Assembly (NCBI GenBank): GCA_002189035.1
Contig: CM007992.1
Location: 1,364,001-1,428,000, forward strand
Source: Utricularia gibba
Lineage: Eukaryota > Streptophyta > Magnoliopsida > Lamiales > Lentibulariaceae
Reading direction: 5' to 3'
Length of the DNA stretch: 64,000 nucleotides
Of this stretch, positions 6,230-56,772 are shown one piece after another (within the stretch, counting starts at the first letter, position 1; the number at the start of each line of letters is the position of its first letter). Both the position numbers and the translations under genes were made by a program. Under the pieces are notes generated by a model. The model did no database searches. It saw only the letters and a program-made list of their open reading frames with translations, and was not told where the DNA came from.

Positions 6230-8390
6230 AAATTTTATGAATAATTTTGTTTAATTTTACTTAAAAATTATTAAATTTCTTGAATTTTATTTTAGTTATT
6301 AAATAAGATATTATACATTAAAGTATAAGATATATATATTTTTTACTATTAAATTACATAATAATTAAATATATTAAATTTTACAATATAATTTTATAAT
6401 AACATAAAAAATAATTTTACAATTTTAAATTTGATTCTATTCTATATAATTTAAAATATAGCTTCAAATTACAGAAAATTGTCTTAATGTTTTCGAAATT
6501 ATAATTATTTTAATATTAATCATCTAGATCAACTGGATTAAACGATACAATCAAGAATTAATCATAAAAAATATTTGATTGAGTATCCAATCTTTCTATT
6601 CTATTAATGGCATTTTCTATCCAACCCTAATCATAAATAGATTATTTTGGCAATAAGCATTCAAAATATTCAAATCTTAAAGACTACCTTAACAAAATAA
6701 TTTTTTAAAAAATAAAAATAAAATTAAGTAACTATTTTCTAGGGTTAAAAATAGTATTTTTAGGTACATATTCAAAAGCATTTTTGATAGAAGTAAAAAG
6801 TAGAAATAAATTGTGATTTATCAATAAATAATTTTATTTTTTATAAAGTTAAAATAAATTTCAAACAAAGTTTGGAATACTGTTTGAATATTGTAAATCT
6901 GTAAAACATTGAAATACCTATATTAAGAGTACATAGAATTCAAATTTTATTTGAGATAACTAAAATTAAAATATCAGAATTATTGCATTGAATTCCAACT
7001 TCCAAAGACTATGAACTATTAAAGATCAAATTGACATCAACCAATAATTACAATACTATTTTAATTACGACTCCATTAGATATTTACTATCCCATGTAAT
7101 ATCATAGTGATCAATCTCATTTTTGCATATATATATATATATATGTATATATCTATATATTTAATTGGTATATTTCTGTTTTTGGTGCATAAATTACCTT
7201 TTCTTTTGTACATTTTTGATTGATATAAATGGTAACATAATCTATTGTTATCAATTTATAAGTCATTCCAATGTTTTATTAAACTGAAATTTTCTACTTA
7301 TTAAAAAACTATATTTATATTAAGTTTTTATTTGAAACGGTTTTTAATTTTGAAAAAATGTTTCATAAATAGTTATATCATCAATTTTATTCAAAAAAAA
7401 ATTAAAAAATAATTTTTATTTTTAAAAAGTTATAAAGATCTAAATTAAATTTTTATTAAAATTACTTTTTCAAATTTTTTAGAAATAAAACTAAATTGGT
7501 CTTAATTAAAATTCGAAATATCATATATCCTACTCTAAAACCAATCGTTGATCCACATATTGATTTTTAGTTTACTCTGTATTAATTATATTCTTTAAAT
7601 CATACATCTTTTATATATAATATTTCTATTCAATTTAATATATTTAAATAAAAATAAAAGAAGAAATACTTTTGATGTGATAAAAAGCATAAAATGAATG
7701 GTCATCTTATAAAAACAATAGCAAAAATAACTATTGATTTGTTGTGAGAGAGTTAAAATTTGATGCATCAACTATTAATATATCTAAGATATTGTTTGTT
7801 GGTTAAATTCAAATAATAGTTTTTTTAACTCAAAAGTTGAAAAAAATTCGGTGAGTGAAGGAATTTTGATCTCAATATCATAGTTGTGATAAAAATAATT
7901 AGTAATGTGACTTTCTCAAAATGAGATTCGAAAAAATGAGATTATTTATCATAAAAACCGCTTTCGAGAATTAAAATTTACCATTTCCATAAATAATTTC
8001 TAACCATTTAAATATAAAACTAGCACTCAAAAAATAAATTCAATTTTTTTTCATAACATATAATATTATCGCATTCACTAATTTTTACTATTTTTATAAA
8101 TTTGTTTCATCAATTTAATTTAATCTAGTTTATATATTTTAACATGAAAAAAATATATGAATTTTATTATTCTTTCATGCATTTGAATATAACTTATCAT
8201 GTTATTGATAAATAACATTATTTTTCAAATACTAGAATCAATGACCTCAATATCATAGTTATGATTTTTTGATTGAATTGCAATTGAAAACTTAAAAATA
8301 TAATACAATATGATACAAATATGAGATTATATCAACATCATACATTATGAAAAATGTAATAACATAAATTATCAATTTTCGAAACAAAAA
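6230..8390. other. AT-rich intergenic spacer
   Basis: More than 2 kb of highly AT-rich sequence with no open frame of note and no recognisable protein, RNA gene or terminal repeat. It includes a TA-rich microsatellite near 7126-7162. Confidence 0.7.
7126..7162. repeat. (TA)n microsatellite, interrupted
   Basis: Alternating TA dinucleotides with two short interruptions (TG and TC) inside the AT-rich spacer. Confidence 0.85.
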
Positions 8391-11300
8391 TGACAAGTTT
8401 GACATTGTATGCCCCAATTAACCCAAGAACCTGTTCAGAAACTGATAACGTCCAGGTTCGGTTTTGGAGAAGTGCCTGTAGCTCCTGGTTCATGGCTTCC
8501 TCCCATACGGGAACTCCCTTAGCCTGCACATAGGAAGAAGGTTCATCTATCAGAAAAACAGGCTCGGGAGAAAAATCCTCAACAGTCCGGATCTGGAGCG
8601 CAACATAATCCTGCATCCAGCGAGGAGGATTAATAAACCGGGAACTATGACGCCGCCCCACCACTGCATCAGACGTCGAAGAGAAGTGCGGAGAGGAACC
8701 CAAGACAGGGGAATCAATAGCTCCTGAAGTAGGAACATCGTCGCTGGCTGAGTCCTCAGTTTGGGCTGAGTCCGGCTGAAGACCAGAAGGAGCAGCAACT
8801 GAAGAGCCAGGGAATAAGTCGCCATCATCGTCCGGTAGGAGGAAAGGCAAAACCGAATCAATAGACGGTTCCTGCAGAGTACAACCCTTCAAAGGGAAAA
8901 TGTGTTCAAAAATGTTTTTCTCGATCATTTGTAAGCTTTGTGATCCAATGGGTAACCGAGAAAAACACATTTGCGTGCCCGCGGGGCTACTTTATCAGCC
9001 TGTGGATTCGATAAACCTGCAAAACATAGACAACCGAAGACTCTCAAGTGATCGAGAACCGGAGGCGTCCCCATAAGCCTTGCAAAGGGGGAATCCCATT
9101 GTAACACAGCAGTGGGGAGACGATTGATCAAATGGGTAGCAGCCAGAACCGCATCCCCCAAAAACCCTTCGGCAAGCCTGATTGAAGCATAAGAGCACGG
9201 GTGATTTCGAGAAGGTGTTTATGTTTGCATTCCACTCTGCCATTCTGCTGAGCACGGTTGGTACAGGTGTATTGATGCAAAATCCTTTGGCTCGAGCAAA
9301 GCTGACGCATCTGCGCATTAAGAAATTCACCTCCCTTGTCACTGCGGATTTGTTTTACGTCAGCCCTAAATTGCCTGTGGAAGAAGCGAAGCATCCTAGC
9401 AATGTGGTCACCAGCCTCAAACTTGCATTTCAACAGGACGGTCCAGGTGCTACGCGTGTGGTCATCAAGTATGGTTAAAAAATACCGTGTTCCATGGATC
9501 GTGTCAACCTTGTATGGCCCCCAAAGATCACAATGGAGGAGGAAAAATTTATCCGGGGCAAGCGAGTCACTCAAAGAGAAGGAAGGCCTCTGGAATCGAG
9601 AGAATTCGCAAATGTCACAGGGATGTCCCTGAAGTCCACAAGAGATAGGCATGTGGGCTGCCTTGGAGTCGGATAGGTGACCCAATCGACAATGCCAAAG
9701 CAAAGGGGGCATCAAAAGATGAAACCGAGCCACAAAACAAAACAGATTTAGTCCACAAGACATCAAACAAATGACCCAGGAAGCATCAGCATGTTGTAGC
9801 AGAGCCTTGGTGGTAGCTGCTCGAAAATGAGGTAAACAAGACCTGCTGTCGAGAATGTAGAGACCATCACGGACACGCCCCATGGCTAACACCCTATTGG
9901 AAACCTGGTCCTGCAGAACCCATCCAGCTTCAAACAAACGAAAAAGGACCTTCATGTCATTGGCCAGGCGATGCACAGAAAGCAAATTAAATTTGAAGGA
10001 AGGAACATAAAAGGTGTGTTGGAGTGTCATGTCATCCTGTAAGCGTACTGTCCCAACACCGAGAACATTGGCCATAGAACCATCAGGCAGTGAGATTGCA
10101 GCATTCCCAATATTCTGTGCCAGCTGAAATTGATACTTGGTATAGCAGACGTGGGTGGTAGCACCCGAGTCGATAATCCACTCCCAGGGTTTGCAAATGA
10201 AAGTATCAGTCACCCGACTACTCATGGACACCTCAATGGGAAGTATACCTGCAAAATGCGTGTGGCTCATAGTAGGATGCTGCGGGGAAGAGCCATGAAG
10301 CGGAGGGGCAGAGGTGTGCCCTGAGGAGCATAGTTTTCGAACTTCGAATTGCAAGGCCTGCAGCTCTTGTCGCAAGGAGCTGATGGTGGCATCTGATGAA
10401 TTTGTAGTTGAGGTGGAGTAAACTTCATCAATTGGAGTGTCAGCATGCATCACCTGACAAGAATAGGGAGCACTATGTCCTGAAGGACGAGTAGCCTTAA
10501 TCGCTCCCCCAGCAGACTGACCTATGTGCTGCACATTTGATTCCCGCTTCTTCCACCAAGAGGGATAATTACCGGTGAGAATAAAACAGGTTTCACGAGT
10601 GTGTCCCTGTTTCTTGCATTGATCACAATAACGACCATCACGTTTCTTAGCATTGCCAGTGAAGGAATTATTAGAAGACAGCTGACATGCAATGTTGGCA
10701 TCAAGAAAATGAGTATTCATAGCAGCATGACTAAAAGTATCAGCACTGCTTTGTTTTTCTTGCTCCACTTTGAGAAGGATAGAGTAGGCCTTGTCTACGG
10801 TGAGGCCATCCATCACAAGGATCTGATTCTTAATCGAATCATATCGGTCATTTAATCCTCGCAAGAACTGTGTCAATTTAGTGGGAGCAAAAACAGCAGC
10901 AGTAGGAACAAGTGCCGAACAGTTTATGCATGTTATATCAGGCGTAACCGTTTCCAAATCCTTCCATAACCCACTAAGCTTCGTGTAATACTCAGCTATA
11001 GAGAGACTGCCCTGCTTTAGGTGATAAAGATCATGCTGTATCTGATAGAATTGACTGTGATTCAATCTGCCATAGTGATTTTGCAAAGAAATCCATAGAT
11101 CATATGAACTAGAGGCGTTATTGAAGCTAGAAACCAGTCCCTTGGATATTGAATTTAGCAACCACGACATTATCATGTAGTCGTTGCGAATCCAGAGGTT
11201 ATACGTCGGATCCGTGATCGGAGGACAACGGATTTCACCGTCAATGAAAGCAAGTTTGTTCTTCGAGCCCAACGCCAAACGAACGTTTCGACGCCATTCA

Positions 11301-11443
11301 AAATAGTTCAGCGTGGTCAGGGGAGAGTTTACCAAGGCGATGTTAGGATGATCGGAACCGCTCAACATCAGCGGATCAGATCGATCGATGACTGCGCCAG
11401 CACCGAAAGCCGATGGCACAGGTTCTCCGGAAGTCGTATTCAT
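8338..11443 (-). pseudogene. Copia gag-pol polyprotein, frameshifted and lacking RT/RNase H
   Basis: The first 771 codons (11443-9128) contain an N-terminal Gag region (NYFEWRRNVRLALGSKNKL; WLLNSISKGL), a CX2CX4HX4C zinc knuckle (CDQCKKQGHTRETC), protease active site WIIDSGATTHV, the H-x-R-x-G-H pre-integrase motif (WHCRLGHL), and integrase with D residues in LLHCDLWGPY and IRSDKGGEF plus a downstream QQNGRVECKH in place of the usual E motif. Near 9150-9165 the frame is lost in a run of T and G (FWG then GDAVLAATHLINRLPT one frame over); a second break lies near 8925-8935. The last recognisable segment is the start of RT. This is an old copy with no sign of use by the host. Confidence 0.85.
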
Positions 11444-11582
11444 GTTCTTGAATGGAAGACGTCGGGGATTGACGACCGTTCCACGCTCACCGCACCATGT
11501 TCAAAGGTCGAACGAACAATTTTATTTTCTCTTCAATTGCCTTCGTATTTGTTCTACCCAACGTCCGTTCGACCTTTGAACA
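8430..11582 (-). mobile_element. Truncated Ty1-copia retrotransposon
   Basis: Reading on the minus strand, a candidate 5' LTR (11498-11582) is followed by one long gag-protease-integrase frame (11443-9128), then by two shorter shifted frames (9161-8925 and 8970-8338). Order is Gag, zinc knuckle, protease, GAG-pre-integrase, integrase: the Copia order. Similarity ends just inside the reverse transcriptase (WEEAMNQELQALLQNRTW, near 8.45 kb). RT core, RNase H and a 3' LTR are absent, and the sequence passes directly into AT-rich spacer. The copy cannot move by itself. No target-site duplication can be defined because one end is lost. Confidence 0.88.
11498..11582 (-). repeat. Candidate 85 bp 5' LTR with 19 bp inverted ends
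   Basis: The segment begins TG and ends CA, and its outer 19 bases (11499-11517 and 11563-11581) are inverted repeats matching at 18 of 19 positions. It sits at the 5' border of the copia element, and TGG follows directly after it on the minus strand, as a primer-binding site would. The matching tRNA was not identified and no second LTR is present, so a simple stem-loop remains possible. Confidence 0.45.
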
Positions 11583-16689: not shown

Positions 16690-18180
16690 GCCCATGAAGC
16701 CTTTTCCACCTGCATTCTCATTGTCATGTAAACAGCAATCAGAATTCAGAATCACAATTGCAGACACAGCAGAAGTTGAGACTCCTTATCAGCCACGCCG
16801 CCGCTGTACAACGCGATCACTCAACAAATCTCAGCAACCACCGGCGAACGTAGAACAACATAACCCTAACCCTCAACAGATAATTTCGGTTTTAAAATCG
16901 TTTCCGGGTCACGGTTCAACCCGTTAGAGCCCGTTTATCGCTTCCCCTCGTTTTCCAGAATTGTTCAGAGAAACTGAGGAATCCATGAGTCGTCTTCAGC
17001 GTTGGAGTTCAAAACTGCGGATGAAGTTCAAGAACACTTCAAAGAAGATGCGCTTCTTTCAAATTCCCGTTAAGTTGAGTTCAAGTTTTGCGTCGAGAAC
17101 AGTTGCGTAGTTGTCTGCCGAAATAATGCTGACTGTCGCCGCCACCCATCGCTTGCTGCAGAGTTCTCCACCGAGCAGATGCACTTCTTTCATTCTGGGC
17201 CGAGTGCACTTTCTTGGAAATACGAAAGGCCAAAGGGGCCTTGAGGCGAAAAGATTATCCGACTGCGTGAGATACTGAGGGTGAAAATCTATATATATGA
17301 TTAAGAGAGTGTTTAATAAAAGGGTATATAAGTATTATATTCAATTTTACACATATATCATTATTTTATTAATTAGTATATTTATATTAATTTTACATGA
17401 GTATATCATTTATATACTCATTTTTAAGTATATAAGTGATATATACTATTAAGAGTAAAAATCGGTATTCTGTCGAAGGTCGATTTTTGGGTTATAGATT
17501 CGGATGGACGCGTCGTATCCAATCGTGGATTACGTGTTTTGCTTGGGGCAGTTAATGAAAGTAAAGATAGATAAAAAATTTTTACGTGAAAACTGTCGAA
17601 GAACGGAAAAATCACGGAACTATCTGAACTTGTCGAGAAACTAGCTTTCACTAGATGGAGAAGAAGAGAAAATACAAGTTGGGAGATTTAACATCAAAAC
17701 TTTTCCATTACAATGTTTCTAACATTTATAGGTGAGTTGAGGCCGACGGAGTTATGAGCTTTGCATGCATCGGTGATCTCAAAATGGCCACTTCTTACAA
17801 ATTATAATAAATAGAATTTGGAGTTCTGAGCTCTCGCCTTTTGGACAGAGCCCTTAATATGGCAATAATAAATTATAAGAGAGTTATTGTTTGTGACGTT
17901 GGTTTTTTGGAGGTTTACACTAATTTGGTTGAAGTTAACTCCACCATTTTTTATCTTTGCAAATTCAAGGATAGGTGTATTGAAAATGCGCATATCCAAA
18001 CAAACAAATTTTTAGTATAAAATGGATCATATTCCATGTCCCATTTTCTTACTTTGCTATTGAGCATAATAAGTCCAAGGTGCTGACATATTGATTATTA
18101 CGTCGAGAAGTTGATATTTAAATCAAATGTGATGTGAGTCATTTCATTATCCATGGTGACTTCAAATTCCCCTCATAATT
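16690..18180. other. APE1L upstream region and start of gene desert
   Basis: 16690-17280 is moderately GC-rich and probably holds the APE1L promoter and 5' UTR; it includes a telo-box-like TAACCCTAACCCT near 16860. From about 17280 the sequence becomes AT-rich with no coding signal. Confidence 0.5.
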
Positions 18181-19937
18181 AATATATGTATACATTAAAA
18201 ATCGATTAAATGAATTTTAATATATTAAATCTAAAATTATTGAATGTTGAATATTTAGTTAAATAAATATTGATACAATTATATTTTAATATATTGAATA
18301 AAATTCATTCAATCATGAAATATTTATTAAATCAAACCTATATTTATCAAAATTTTTATTAGTAATATATTTCGTTATAAAAAACCAATATAAATTGATT
18401 TTAGTATATTAAGTTAAAATTAATTTACTTATGAAATATTTAGTAACTAAAAAAACTATTTATAAAAATTAACATGAATCATATATTTTATAATTAAAAA
18501 TTGATACAAATTAATTTTAATATTTGAATCAAAATACAATTAATGATTAAACAAGTATTTATGAAAAAAAAATATTAAAATTATATTTTTATATCAAAAG
18601 TCGATATGAATTAGTTTTAATATTTTGAATCAAAATTCATTTAATAATAAAATATGTATTAAATCAAATACATAATTATGAAAAACGATGTTAATAATAT
18701 ATAATTTCATCAAAAATTGATACAAATTGATTTCAACATATTAAGCAAAAATTTATTTAATATTAAAATATTTAGTTAAAGAAACAGATATTTTAAAAAA
18801 AATCAATATAAATGATATATTTCTACATATAAATGAATTGATACAAATTGATTTTAATAAAATTCATGATGATCGACATCCACAATAATTAGATAAGATT
18901 CATCAATTTATCATATTTATCAATAAATCATATTACTCAACAAGATAAATGAAATGATCATGATTGAAAGTGACCCCAATTCACTCTCTATCTATTCTGC
19001 CATTCTTTTTCCCAAATTGTATGACAAAACACCAAAATGTACTCAATTCCCTTTCATATTGATTTTGACGCCTCAATGGGCGGCATTACATACCAACACT
19101 GTATTTATGAAATTGATTTTAATATATATTAAATCAAATATATGATTACGAATATTAATTTTAATATAGTAAATCGAAAATCATTGAATAATGAAATGTT
19201 GAATGATCAAATAAGTATTTATAAAAAAGATATTTGCAATATATTTTTATATCAAAAATTCATATAAATACATTTAAATATATTTAGTGAAATATTAATA
19301 TAGATAATGAAATAAATAATTATTTATGAAATTCGATATTAATATTATATTTTTCTATACGAAACAATATAATAGAAAATTAGTAAATAACTATTTATAA
19401 AAATCAATAATTATTATTATTTTATATAAAAAATATACAAATTGATTTAATATTAAAATATTTAATAAATCAAAAGAATATTCATTAAAATCGTTATCAA
19501 TAGTATATTTTTATATAAAAAAATACATAACAATTTATTATATTATATTGAATCTAAATTCATCTAATAGTAAAATATTAATAATTAAAGATATTAAATA
19601 AAAATGAATTTGATAATAGAATATTTAGTAAAATAAACATATATTCATGAAAATCAATGTTTAATATTATATTTTTATGTCCAAAAATGATATAAATTAA
19701 TTTTAATATGTTGAATTGAAATTCATTTAGTGATTAAATCCTGAATAAATCAAAGAAGTATTTATAAAAATCTATATATATAGTATATTTTTATATAAAA
19801 AATTGATATAAATATATTTAAATATATTGAATTGAAATATTAATATATTTAATCAAATAAATAAGTATTTATAAAATTCAATATTATTTTTATCGAATAT
19901 AATTTAATTTCAAATAAAAAACATTCAAAAAAATTCA

Positions 19938-20170
19938 TTCTATCATTTCTCTTTTTTCGTTTTATTTTTCCAAAATGATACAATGACGTACCGAAACCGA
20001 CGATTACCCATCAAGTGACGAAGCCAATAACGAAGAATAAAAGATTGTTCTAGTTGTTAATCAAAAGCGGCAACGACATTGACTGCATAGTATCAAGTGC
20101 ATTGAAAAATATATTATATGTTGATTTCAATGTTTCCATCATCTAAGAATATTATATTTTTTGTGTCAAC
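19938..20170. repeat. Higher-order module copy 1
   Basis: Contains GTACCGAAACCGACGATTAC and CCATCAAGTGACGAAG, followed by ATATTATATGTTGATTTCAA and GTTTCCATCATC. The same landmarks recur in the three later copies. Confidence 0.7.
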
Positions 20171-20689
20171 AAATGATATAAATTTATAAAAAAATATTTA
20201 TAAAAATTGATATTTATAGTGTATCCATATATTAAAAAATGGAAAATTGATTTTAGTATATTGAATCGAATTTATTTAATATTGAAAAATTAAATAAATC
20301 ATACAAATATTCATACAAATCAATAATAATAGTATATTTTTATATAAAAAACCAATATCAATTTATTTTAATATGCTGAATCTAAATTTATTTAATAATA
20401 AAATATTTGGTGACTAAATATATTAAATCGAAATTAATTTGACAATGAACTATTTAGTATTTATTAAAATGGTGTGATTTTATTAAATAAGATACATGCT
20501 TATGAAAATCGATTTTAAAACAAAAATCTATACTTACAATATCTAAACTCATATTGATGTTGAGTAAACAAAAATTCAAATCTCATGTACATGAATGGAC
20601 AACTATCCACTTATCTCCAAATTCAATCTTAGAATTCAATTATTAATCATCAATTCAACTTAACATTAAATAACATTCCACCATAATTC

Positions 20690-20930
20690 AATCAATCACA
20701 TCCGTCGTTTCCTTTTTTCTTTTCCCAGGTAATACAGTGTCGTACCGAATCTAATGGTCACCCATCTAGTGATGAAGTCCATAAGGAAGAATGAGAAATT
20801 TTTGAAGTTGTTCTCCGACACGGGAAATGGTGGCTATGTGATGCATAATATCAAACTTATTAAAAATTGTATTTCATGTCAACTTTAGTGTTTCCATGAT
20901 CATCGTTGTAGTTTTCAATATTTCTATTTT
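20690..20930. repeat. Higher-order module copy 2
   Basis: Contains GTACCGAATCTAATGGTCAC and CCATCTAGTGATGAAG, then TTTCATGTCAACTTTAGTG and TTTCCATGATC, in the same order as copy 1. Confidence 0.7.
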
Positions 20931-21629
20931 GAACATTGTTGTCGATTTTGACCAATCTACTATATGTTTAAATTTATCCTATGCCTTTTGGGTTTTTTGA
21001 TTTGAAGTCCAATCTACTTAAAGGCTTAGGGCTTAGGATCTTAAAGCTCAATAATTTTTAAGGTTATTAATGTATATAATTATGAATTATATATCATAAA
21101 TAATTAATATATTGATGAAATTTTTAAGGGCTTAGGACTTAGGATCTTAAATTATGAATTATTGTAAACAAGTAATCTAATATATCATAAATTTACAAAT
21201 GTTATAAAATTAAATTTAATAAATGATATAAATATTCGTTAAAATCAACATTAATAATATATTTTTGTATCATAAAATACATATCAATTTACTTTAATAT
21301 ATTGAATCTAAATTTGTTTAATATTACAATATTTAGTGATTAAAATATTGATTTTAAATGAATTTGACAATGAAATATTTCATGAATTAAGCATATGTTG
21401 ATGAAAATTGACATTAATATTATAGTTTTATATTAATAAACGATATATATCGATATGTGTAATTATAAAAATCGATATTTATAATATATTTTGATATTAA
21501 AAATTAATACAAATGTATTTAAATATATTGAATCGAAATATTAATATATTTAATGAAATAATAAATTATTTATGAAATTTGATATTATTATTATGGAACA
21601 CAATTCAACTTCAAATACAAATACAGAAA

Positions 21630-21880
21630 TAAAATTTAATCTATCATTTTCGTCTTTTACTTTCTTCATACCTAGTTGGTATAGTGGTCTACCGGATCCA
21701 ATGTTCACTCCTCAAGTAATAAATTTGATAAGAAAGAATGAAAAATTATTATAGAACACAATTGCAACAGCATAGATTGCGTAGTATTAGATTTATTGAA
21801 AAATATATTACACTTTAATTTCAGCATTTCCATTATCAAATAATCTTATATATTTATGTGAATAAACGATATAAAATGAT
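21630..21880. repeat. Higher-order module copy 3
   Basis: Contains CTACCGGATCCAATGTTCAC and CTCAAGTAATAAA, then a GAATGAAAAATT block, ATATTACACTTTAATTTC and CATTTCCATTATC. It is the most diverged copy in the core. Confidence 0.65.
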
Positions 21881-22599
21881 GATCAATTATTTATGAAAAC
21901 TGATATTTATAGTTAATTTTTATATCAAAAACATATAAATTAACTTTAATGTATTAAATTGAATTCATGTAATATTGAAATACTTAATAAAAAACAAATA
22001 TTTATTAAAATTGATATTAATGGTATATTTTTATATCAAAAAAATTCATATTAGTTTATTTTAATATATTGAATCTAAATTAATCTAATGTAAAGTATTT
22101 AGTGATTAAAGAGATTGAATTTAAATGAATTTGACAATGAAATATTTACTGAAGTAAATATGTATTCATAAAAATTGATATTCATATTAGATTTTTATAT
22201 TAAGAAACGATATAAAATGAGTGTATATATTGAATTGAAATTCATTTAATGATGAAATGTTAAATGAAAAAAAAAAATTAGATATAAATATCAATAAGAT
22301 ATTTTTATATAAAAAATGGATATAAATACATTTAAATATATTAAATCTAAATAGTAATATATTTCATCAAAGAAACAAATATTTATAAATGATATTATTA
22401 TTATTAAATTTTTATATTAAAACTATACAATAGTAAATTGGTGATAAAGTATTTATAAAATACGATATTTACAGGTTATATTTTTGTATCACAAATATAT
22501 TCAAATGTATTTAAATATATTGAATCGAAATTTCAATATATTTAGTAAAATAAATAAGTATTTGTGAAATTTGATATTATTATTATCGCACAAAATTCA

Positions 22600-22745
22600 A
22601 TCTATGATTTTCGTTTTATTTTTCTTATCAAGGTGATACAGTTCCACACCGAAACCGACGGTTATAACTCTGGTGATGAAATCGAATAGAAAGATTGAGC
22701 TATTTTTGTAATTATAACATTACAATATGAAATTTATGATTAACT
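22600..22745. repeat. Higher-order module copy 4 (shorter)
   Basis: Contains ACACCGAAACCGACGGTTA and CTGGTGATGAAATCG, then AAGATTGAGCTATTTTTG. The second half seen in copies 1-3 is missing or very diverged. Confidence 0.65.
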
Positions 22746-23299
22746 ATTTATGAAAATCGATATTAATAATATATTTTATATATAAAAATATATATAAATT
22801 GATTTTAATGTATTTAATTGAATTCATTTAATATTTAAATATTAAATAAATCAAAAAAATATTCATTAAAATCAATATTAATAATATAATTTTATATCAA
22901 AAAACTGATATCAATTCATTTAATAATAGTATATTTAGTAACTTAAGTGAAATTAATTTGATAATAAAATATTTAATGAAATAAATGTGTATTCATGAAA
23001 ATTGATATTAGTATTAGATTTTTATATTAAAAAACGATATAAAATGATTGTATCTATTGAATCTAAATTCATTTAACGATGACATGTTAAATGAAAAAAA
23101 CAAAAAATTTTAGAAATCAATATCAATAAGATATTTTTATATCAAAAATTGATATAAATACATCTAAATATATTAAATCTAAATATTAATATATTTCATC
23201 AAATAAATAAATATTTATAAATTTGATATTAATATTATATTTTTTTATAATAAAACTATACAATATTAAATGTATGACCAAGTATTTATAAAAATTTTT

Positions 23300-24880
23300 G
23301 ATCAAGTATTCACAATCAAATTATTATACTTTTCAATCTGTCAAAAACAGTCGCTTTTGACAAACCCTGACAGTTATCGACGTCTCAGACTGCACTTGGG
23401 TATCAAAAGACATTTTGGTCACTTTTCAGTAGCCGATTAGCACGTCCGATTTAGACTCCATCATATACAAATAGAAAAAAAGGAAATTAGTTGTATGTAT
23501 ATTATTCACTTACTCGAATTTCTATTCTCAAATATTAAATATTATATGAAATTAATCATATAAATACTCAATTATATTATACATAGATATATTAATACTT
23601 AACTATCAAAATACCTCTAATTCTTATTGTTCAATGTAAAGGCTCAGGTATGGGACAGTCTGCTATAAGAGCGGAGGTAGCACATATGGGGTAGATCAAG
23701 GTTAGCGGGTTTTGGAAGTCATAGTATATTCCGTCTCATTTTTTCATTTTTGCATGTTTGTTTTTGTTATATGCATCGTGGATGTTCCTCGGCAATCCCA
23801 AGCACGCCAGGGAACGGTAATGTGCCCGATCTATGGTCTGCTGTTGCGTGGTGTTACAGGTCCTTACCTGATTTCATGTTCTTGTTCTTTAGTCACGCTA
23901 CATTTGAAAAACCTAAGAATCAATTATATTCATAATGATTTTGTATAGAATTGATTATGTATTTCAAATATATGTCAAATTATCTTTTATAAAAATTAAT
24001 TTTTGAGAATCAATTCATTTATATAAAAAGCATGGAATTATAGTTTTTCTAGGAAATTGATTCGAGAATTAATTCTAAAAATAAAATTACAATTATATCT
24101 TTTTTTATAAATGATTAATTATTCTAATTTTTAAATTAGAATATTGATATAAATGCAATTATATTAAAATAACAACATAAATTATAATTTAAAAATTATA
24201 TAATATTCCTATAACACGAATAGTATAAAAAAATATTCTTAAATTATAAATTTATAAAATATAATTATTAATACATATGAATAAATGTGTCATTTAATTA
24301 TCAAAATCAATTCGCATTTTTTATACTCCAAACATGAATTCATTCTATAATAATCATTCTAAAAAACAATTACAAACATATATCAATTCTTATTTTATTA
24401 TAATTTTCAATTATGTTAAAATTAATTCTGAAGTGATCTTTTCAAATGTAACCTCAATGTCGCATCTTGTAGGGAAGCATACCTCACAACTCTTCCCAAT
24501 TTCCTCTCAGATTTCAATTACAGTGGCCATTAGGAGACCTATCCCTCTTTTGTCTACCTACTTAGGGAATTATGAATTTTTGTAAAAATAGCCCTTAATT
24601 AAAATGAGAATATAAAACCATCACCTATAATTTATCAGATTAAACTGAAATTTTTCTTTTTCAATTGCATAAAATCTATGTTTTAAAACATGAATGCAAT
24701 AGTTGATTAGAGTTTTTTTTAAAACCCTTGAATGAAATTTCTATATTTAAATATATATTTTAAATTAATAATTAAAAAATAGTATTTGGAAAGTGAATAA
24801 CGAGGGGGTGGGGCATTTACAGCTTAGCAACAGAATAACAAAAATTACTAATTACTATTTCGAAAAAGAACTATTTGTTT
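23300..24880. other. Intergenic region between the repeat array and the cyclin promoter
   Basis: Mostly AT-rich without genes. Two islands of more balanced composition (about 23330-23460 and 23630-23900) stand out but show no recognisable protein, RNA or terminal repeat. Confidence 0.5.
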
Positions 24881-24914
24881 TGAAAAGGTACACGTGGCTG
24901 AATATTTAAAATAT

Positions 24915-24982
24915 AGCCGTTTGCACCCAACACAAGAAAGAGCGATGCGCTTCATCCAACGGTCATCATTCACTAGCCGTTG
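24915..24982. promoter_or_regulatory. Cluster of three MSA-like elements (AACGG cores)
   Basis: TCCAACGGTC at 24955-24964 fits the mitosis-specific activator consensus (YCYAACGGYY). AGCCGTTTG (24915-24923) and AGCCGTTG (24975-24982) carry the AACGG core on the minus strand. They lie about 430-500 bp upstream of the cyclin start codon. MSA elements are bound by three-repeat MYB (MYB3R) factors and drive G2/M transcription of plant B-type cyclins, so the location fits. Confidence 0.7.
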
Positions 24983-25416
24983 TTTTCAAATAAATTCCAA
25001 GAGAATAGACACTGACTGGTCTTCCGAGGGTGCAGACATAAATCCGCTCTTCACTCTATCTCCATATTTTTCAATTGAACAATTTGGGGAGTAGAGGGAG
25101 TCAGATTCCCAATTTTGTGTCACCCCTTTCGAAAACTCTGTCGAATGATTCGCCTTCAATGGGGTTTCATATGTAGTCTCCCTCCCTGTATTCCTACGGA
25201 TCTTCTTGCAGGAGCTTGTGTTCGTTTCTGTAGTTTCGTGGGATTCTATTGATTTCAAGGTTTGGGTTCTGTCGATTGAATTTTTTTTCTTTGATTTAAT
25301 GACGTGGGCATCATTGATCTGAGTTTAATCTTCAGGATTTGAATTAAGATTCCATTTTTTTCGCTTTTCTTTGTATTTTTCCAGACCTGTATCCTGTATT
25401 GGAAATATAAATCGTA

Positions 25417-33425: not shown

Positions 33426-36400
33426 TCAGGCGGAGATAGTGATGCCTAATTCTTTTGCGGCGGCATCCACGAACTGAATCGGCAGTCCGGTGGCGAGGCG
33501 GCTGTGCGCTTCCCATGTCAGGCACTTCTTGATCTCTGCGACGCAGTCGGTTGTGCCGACCTTCAAGAGGGCGTACGGCGGGCTGCGGATGGCCTCGGCG
33601 TCGGCGTCGGCGTCGGCTCTGATACTGGAGGTTAAGATGCTGGCGTGTAAAATGGCACGGAGGACGGATGTGCTGAGGGCACGAACATGCGCGCTGGGAT
33701 GGGAGACGCAGCGAACCGTGGCGGGAAGGCGGCACTGCAGCAGGTAAGAAACCAATGTATTGAGAATGGGATGGTGGGTGGATGTTATTATCAGGGGATG
33801 GGATGATGATACCTTCAATAGATTGGAGAGGCCGTCTGCGACTGGGAAACCGGACTCTCCCCATTCTATAACTGGTTCGACAGCTCGGGCTGTCACTTCC
33901 AGCAGCTGTTGAATGTTGGATGACACAAGAAACCGGTGAATTTTGCAAATAAGGATGGGGAAAGATGATTGGTGATGTTAATGGGAGGTTTGCTAGAGGA
34001 ATGGTGCAGCTTTAATTACCTCTAGCTGAGGTAAAGTGCATGCTTCTCCATCAACCAGCATGCCGTCGGTGGCACGGAGCAGGACATCTGATGCGCTAGC
34101 GAGAATCACCAGAGACTCTGGGTGATCGTGGTTTCTCATTAACTCGACAAGAACCTTCACTATTCGCTGGTTGATTGTCCACATCTTTTGTCCTTGATCA
34201 TCATCCTTAGCAATCCAAGGTTTTAATTCCCTCTCGGCCTGAGAACAAGTGTCAAGGAGTTCCAAAAAAACAATCAAAAAACTAGAACAGTTGGAAGCCA
34301 TGTGCCACAGAGAAGTTCTTAATTCAGTTTGAAAGCCAAAAAAAGAGACAAGAAAACTGTGGTCTGAACCTGAAGAACAACTGCTGTCACAGCTTTTGCC
34401 GGCGATGCAGATGCCACGTTACATAGAGCAGCAACCACCTGCATCGTTTGGGAAGTGATGATCTGAACTTACCGTGTTTGAAAATTTCAGCATTCAATGT
34501 GGTGAGTAATTAAGGGACTAAAGATTCAGCTAAGAAGGCTAAAGAGAGGATGGATTATTGAGCAGAGTACGATGCCATCATATATAGTTCAAGAAAACAA
34601 AGTGAATTAATTAATACCTGCCTCCAACCTTGCTGAGCGGACGTGCTCTCGGCGCTAGGTTGTGTTTCAGGAGATACGATCAATTTGTGCCACAGTAAGG
34701 AAACAACAGAAACACATAGTTCTTGCTTTTCTGCAAGAACAGATCTCAGAAGAACCTGGGAACTGCAACTAAAACCGATATGTCGATCCATAGTTAAAAA
34801 GTTGGCCAAATCTGAAGCATCTGTAGGGAGGCTTGCCAATCCCTTGCCTACATTGCATCTTTCATTGTCAAAAGAAGCCCCCTTCTCCTCCAATGCTTCT
34901 GACTTGGAAAAGTTTCCAGTCTGTTGTGAAGATGGATGACCATATTCTAACTGGCAACAGCTAGCACAGCTGTTGAGTTTTTTCCCGTGAAAACATGCAG
35001 AGTCCTTAGCTGATGGATTTTGAAGAAGATGCAACTTCATCGGTTCGACTTTGTTTACTATAGAAGCAATTACCTTACTATGAATGTTGATGAGACTGAA
35101 AAGGGAGGATGCCCTGGACTGAATCTCCTTGTCCAACTTGCATCTTACCAAGGCAGAAAGAGCACACATGCAAGCTTTAGAGTGCCTAAACAAATGAGAT
35201 ATGTGGGCTGCGACCATTGCAGCAGCCACTATTTCATTTGAGCTATAACTCCATGAAGTTCCAATGGAAGACGGCTTCAAAGAAAAAAGGGCTTCAAGAA
35301 TTGCTAACATTCTTCGGGTATGTTGAACTGCTAAATTAATGCCATCCTGAAACTCAACATTCTGATTATTAACCATTGCATTCCCACTAACAGAACTATC
35401 TCCAGCATCCAAGAGATTACAGCCTTTGGAGATCAAGGGGAAAAGCTGCAATTCACAGGATAAAGCACAGACAGCAGCAATGATATAAGAATCAAATGCT
35501 GCGACAGGGCCATGCTTTTTAACCCGTTTACCATCAATATCTGTTTTCCTCGCACTAGACCCGTCTTTGCCCAAATCAGCGGAATAAGAAACTTCACCTC
35601 TTGGCCTTTTGCTGCCACTGGGCTGTGCCTCATTACTAACGCATACAGTTAACACAGCAAAAAGAAGGCGGGAGGCAAGTTCTACTGATGCACGGGACTC
35701 CAAGAATAGGGAGTGGACCATTGTCCGGAGCTCAGCCACGGCAAGATTCTTTGATGCAGATCCAAAGGCATATCTTGTTTTCCTATTTTGCTCCCTAGAA
35801 GACTCGGGAGGGAAAGTCCTCTGGAGAACTGCTTCTACAGTAGCGACAAATATCTTAATCAGGCAGGTTTCGGATGGACTTCCACGAGGAAGATACTCAA
35901 GTACTTTAATAAGAGGAATGTATAAGTTCCAAGAAAGTGCAGGAGTCTGCAGAGGTGTTGCAACTATGATCTCAGGAAGATCTACAGCTGAAGAGCTCAA
36001 AGGAATCAAGCCATAAGCAGCTTCCCATATTGTACAAATTCTCCATTCAACCTCTGGACCATGTGCACATAGCATTGAGGCTATCCCCTGGGCAGTAGCA
36101 TCAACTGTAGCTTCCGCAGCAGGAAATTCTTTTTGCTAGTGCAAATTGGAAAATACAAGTCAAGAAGACATGTTGAAGCAAGGAATAATATTGGACAGGA
36201 TTCAGAAAGTCAGAAAATAAAACCTGCTTCCTAGCAATGGAGATATAGCCAGCCAACGGTTCAAGCTGTACTTCAATTCCTTCAACTTGTCTTAGAGGAG
36301 GAAATAGTAAATCTGGCTGAGAGAGTACTCTGAAAAGTAAAGCAGCAGCAGAATCTGCAGCCACCCCAGCTCTCATAGACATAGCAACTCCAATAGCACG

Positions 36401-54800: not shown

Positions 54801-56772
<1,972 letters not shown>

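Follow-up and report, generated by a model that had tools for sequence, protein, structure and literature searches.

A decayed, nested array of an AT-rich unit of about 113 bp occupies positions 18180-23318 (forward strand) of the window, the 64,000-nucleotide stretch of the Utricularia gibba genome analysed here (C4:1364001-1428000), and makes up most of a block of about 5.5 kb that is joined to a fragment of a gene and stands within a single solo long terminal repeat (LTR). It is highly probable, in our judgement, that the block arose by an interspersed DNA duplication, probably through break repair, of an array that was already nested, and that neutral decay followed. The initial annotation had described the array as an undescribed-looking satellite lying between two ordinary genes; the nested array that it reported is present, but it missed the surroundings, in which the array appears as part of a transplanted duplicate placed in a solo LTR. 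The feature extends beyond the array itself, the inserted block beginning near 17806-17847 and stopping near 23318.

Structure of the array

The array contains 15-25% G+C, and its unit is approximately 90% AT, with a consensus of about 8% G+C that contains short AT-rich inverted repeats. Within the window, a profile of the unit placed 34 units, full or partial, arranged head-to-tail at a spacing of about 113 bp, in good agreement with the units of roughly 110 bp over some 5 kb that had been proposed at the outset. Self-comparison of 17400-25000 with blastn returned 209 forward off-diagonal matches, the three highest scoring 569, 543 and 380 bits, with offsets that include 116, 856, 1758 and 2522 bp. 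The off-diagonals at about 110 bp and at longer periods expected from a dot-plot were therefore present, the best match compared with a maximum of 46 bits among the 1-5 matches found in each of three Markov-shuffled controls. Exact 10-mer spacings peaked at about 110 bp and also at 540, 650, 760, 820-830 and 990 bp. Tandem Repeats Finder detected fragments of the array and not the whole of it, because such arrays are so decayed. Unit copies are mostly 70-85% alike and no homogenised array is seen. A non-repeat spacer lies within the array at 18860-19090 (forward strand).

Four GC-richer modules, all on the forward strand, interrupt the array at 19931-20140, 20690-20900, 21620-21835 and 22590-22710. 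Their cores (19987-20040, 20741-20794, 21688-21741 and 22645-22698, respectively) are spaced by 754, 947 and 957 bp, which bears out the longer period of 740-970 bp suggested earlier. The modules have in common a pyrimidine tract, followed in most of them by AG, together with the ordered landmarks by which they were originally recognised; the modules themselves proved real, and the last landmark, TTTCCAT, occurs in modules 1-3 and is absent from the shorter module 4. In a gapped alignment, the stretch following module 3 matches that following module 4 at 81%, which upholds the earlier proposal that a compound unit was amplified on top of the basic repeat, and the block of module 1 is similar to that of module 3.

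Copies elsewhere in the genome

The host genome (about 100.1 Mb in 516 contigs) was searched with two long queries, a consensus dimer and a module consensus, the resulting counts being based on the assembly, with very common words skipped, and hence to be read as lower bounds. Arrays of the unit were found at four places only, namely in the window and at C317:1741.2-1747.6k, C255:1335.1-1336.2k and C244:3151.1-3151.5k, all on large contigs, whilst other genomic matches to the unit were short, weak and AT-rich. Modules were found on C4 and C317 only. A search of plasmids gave weak AT-rich matches only. The initial annotation had expected either many genomic copies, indicating a satellite family, or copies here alone, indicating a local expansion; the outcome lies between the two, and the unit is a dispersed low-copy minisatellite rather than a member of any satellite class. 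No flanking DNA common to the simple arrays on C255 and C244 and the other loci was found, so the event on C4 cannot account for the whole of the dispersal.

These counts bear directly upon the possibility that the window holds one outlying array of a conventional pericentromeric or heterochromatic satellite family. Plant AT-rich satellites with higher-order repeats do resemble it in their nested periods and AT-rich unit of about 110 bp, and tandem units with higher-order duplication are precisely what such a family would display. They differ, however, in having thousands of homogenised copies, in place of four loci for a gene-flanked and unhomogenised array, and the high copy number in long arrays that marks a satellite was not observed in about 100 Mb. 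Even allowing for unassembled arrays, since the counts are lower bounds, we regard membership of such a family as very improbable.

A solo LTR split around the block

The array block is flanked by two parts of one LTR of about 543 bp, which belongs to a dispersed family with TG...CA ends. The 5' part (17447-17805, forward strand) corresponds to LTR positions of approximately 1-357 and the 3' part (23319-23463, forward strand), ending CTCCATCA, to approximately 397-543, as established by comparison with other copies, in which the two parts are consecutive. An identical 5-bp target-site duplication, TATAC, is present on the outside of each part, at 17442-17446 on the left and 23464-23468 on the right; a perfect 5-bp duplication was likewise seen at 4 of 12 other genomic copies of the family. 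The flanks of the array therefore have the terminal structure and the target-site duplication of a solo LTR, with TG changed to TA at the left end in the window. The block stands in place of about 40 bp of this LTR, and no target duplication was seen at its own ends. On the simplest reading of these sequences, a solo LTR would have received the block of about 5.5 kb at a later time, losing about 40 bp in the process. Shortly beyond the right end of the solo LTR lies a foldback, MITE-like AT-rich element (23899-24450), for which the genome gave at least 40 scored matches.

Gene fragment and colinearity with C317

The left end of the block carries an 87-bp fragment of a tetratricopeptide repeat (TPR) exon (17848-17934, forward strand), which we take, from its TPR motif, to derive from a putative SECRET AGENT-like (O-GlcNAc transferase) gene, and which is 88.5% identical to C317:1738427-1738513 on the minus strand. 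Window positions 17852-17957 are also about 81% identical to an open-frame exon at C213:224.74k, within a multi-exon TPR gene presumed on the same grounds to be SECRET AGENT-like. The fragment is continued by intron-like DNA (17936-18055, forward strand; 89% identical to C317:1740450-1740569), the first 25 bp or so of which resemble the start of the intron following the same exon on C213. The presence of intron-like DNA in the block argues for the copying of DNA rather than of mRNA.

The window segments 17936-18055, 18650-19962, 22449-22713 and 22701-23293 follow the same order on C317. The stretch around module 4 (22449-22713) is 83% identical to C317:1746431-1746700, that around module 2 (20593-20801) is 77% identical to C317:1747623-1747833, and the non-repeat spacer has an 84% match at the equivalent position of the C317 array. 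Homology with C317 continues past both ends of the window block, which identifies these ends as arbitrary breakpoints and not as the ends of an element. The gene relic on C317 is longer than that in the window (1738427-1740437, minus strand); it is interrupted by a repeat of about 1 kb and followed by the array. This repeat (C317:1739095-1740087) is dispersed and is also present on C255 and C375. Apparent links between C255 and the C317 flanks are accounted for by another dispersed repeat, which has inserted into the gene relic on C317. Other dispersed repeats break the C317 array at 1740577-1741254 and 1744147-1746419, and one of the repeats interrupting that array is similar to sequence lying upstream of the gypsy-like gag frame at C317:1757264.

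Further observations weigh against the proposed duplication. On C317 the exon piece is inverted relative to the intron-like piece and lies 1.9 kb away, for which an additional rearrangement must be assumed; C317 is inferred to be the inverted copy because the exon-intron junction in the window resembles that of the C213 gene. Window positions 18056-18649 have no counterpart on C317, and the left junction (17806-17847, about 42 bp) is a poor fit both to the LTR and to the gene fragment.

Alternatively, the array could belong to a transposable element as an internal tandem repeat, for instance to a Helitron or, as its variable 3' region, to a Tat/Athila retrotransposon, and have moved together with it. 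Such an origin would account for its place inside LTR sequence here and among pieces of retroelements on C317, for the gene fragment carried along and for the dispersal of the unit to four places. Satellites that originate in the variable 3' part of Tat/Ogre LTR retrotransposons resemble the array in that they, too, are tandemly repeated, AT-rich and associated with sequence of LTR retroelements. The window array, by contrast, stands inside a solo LTR that it breaks in two, is attached to a piece of a host gene and is no part of the element. The LTR pieces sum to one solo LTR instead of two LTRs around an internal region; both block ends lie inside the longer C317 homology, leaving no fixed element ends; target duplication was not seen at the block ends; and the C255 and C244 arrays lack common flanks. 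Constant ends of the kind expected of Helitrons or other transposons were not found among the copies on C4, C317, C255 and C244. Transposition is accordingly considered unlikely. A retroelement 3'-region origin was rejected once it was recognised that the two flanks together make up a single, divided solo LTR.

The C4 and C317 arrays might instead be homeologs left by a whole-genome duplication, with which their divergence of 11-18% is compatible, and the genome does contain at least one duplicated region. That region is marked by an open reading frame at 34555-36135, presumably MED33-like although without a Pfam match, the 78% identical duplicate of which is located at C412:1157371-1158906 and not on C317. 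The exonuclease-like open reading frame to the left of the array (PF03372) has no duplicate in the genome, C317:1728-1758k revealed none of the window's flanking genes, and the block divides a solo LTR into two parts. Homeology is thus extremely improbable, and was set aside after the searches with the MED33-like and exonuclease genes.

Selection and function

The modules contain a short frame (VIQ.RTES.GHPSSDE..KEE) that was once open, with in-frame stops in some copies. Differences in this frame numbered 113, 63 and 81 at codon positions 1, 2 and 3, respectively, without the third-position excess expected of a protein-coding exon. No parent gene for the frame was found in the host genome or among solved structures.

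Very AT-rich DNA between two genes, with short inverted repeats in its unit consensus, could in principle act as a matrix attachment site, an insulator or a replication origin upstream of the neighbouring genes. The divergence between C4 and C317 (K80) is, however, 0.14-0.20 for the array, as against 0.12-0.13 for the adjoining scrap of exon and intron, so the array enjoys no special conservation. In addition, searches with the array and the unit found no array on the homeologous contig C412, and the array of the window was inserted into a solo LTR. There is very little probability, in our estimation, that the array is such a functional element. The simplest account of these comparisons is neutral decay of both copies, with no selection detected.

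Proposed origin of the block and comparison with known systems

In the mechanism that we favour, a unit of about 113 bp would have expanded in tandem beside or inside an intron of a decaying SECRET AGENT-like paralog, after which compound units, each comprising several units and one module of about 120-200 bp, would have been duplicated to give the longer period of 0.75-0.96 kb. A piece of about 5.5 kb, comprising the end of the exon, the intron-like DNA next to it and the greater part of the array, would later have been copied to another chromosome region and joined into the solo LTR, with the loss of about 40 LTR bases and no target-site duplication of its own. The latter two features are to be expected of DNA-mediated break repair and not of transposition. 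The block has the arbitrary breakpoints, the missing LTR bases and the unduplicated ends of a break-repair duplication, its left junction being uncertain by about 42 bp. The donor-like locus would persist on C317, where the gene fragment has presumably since been inverted and the array interrupted by other repeats, and the two copies would now be decaying without detectable selection.

Interspersed (segmental) duplications that carry a minisatellite are similar in that a block with arbitrary breakpoints is copied elsewhere and keeps its intron-like DNA, at the cost of part of the target. The window block differs from them in consisting mostly of a nested AT-rich array, and in the solo LTR in which it landed, which bears a target duplication of its own and gives the event a clear polarity. 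It is ordinary in kind, though unusually readable. An apparent intergenic satellite can here be traced towards its source, since the solo LTR shows which way the copying went and the gene scrap points to the donor-like locus, and nested repeats near genes need not imply heterochromatin or function. The block also offers a datable example of the arrival of array fragments at new sites, and satellite libraries may begin by this route, among others. A further proposal, which we hold only tentatively and think rather doubtful, is that the unit and its splice-acceptor-like module (pyrimidine tract, AG and short once-open frame) constitute an undescribed lineage-specific minisatellite that spreads, transposon-free, as array fragments to unlinked sites. 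Were this correct, the intron of a dead gene may seed a nested satellite-like structure that is then carried into gene-rich DNA.

Elsewhere in the window, the remains of a Ty1-copia retrotransposon with gag and integrase domains lie on the minus strand at 8338-11500, and a 70-bp unit is repeated twice at 56055-56189, the copies matching at 86%.
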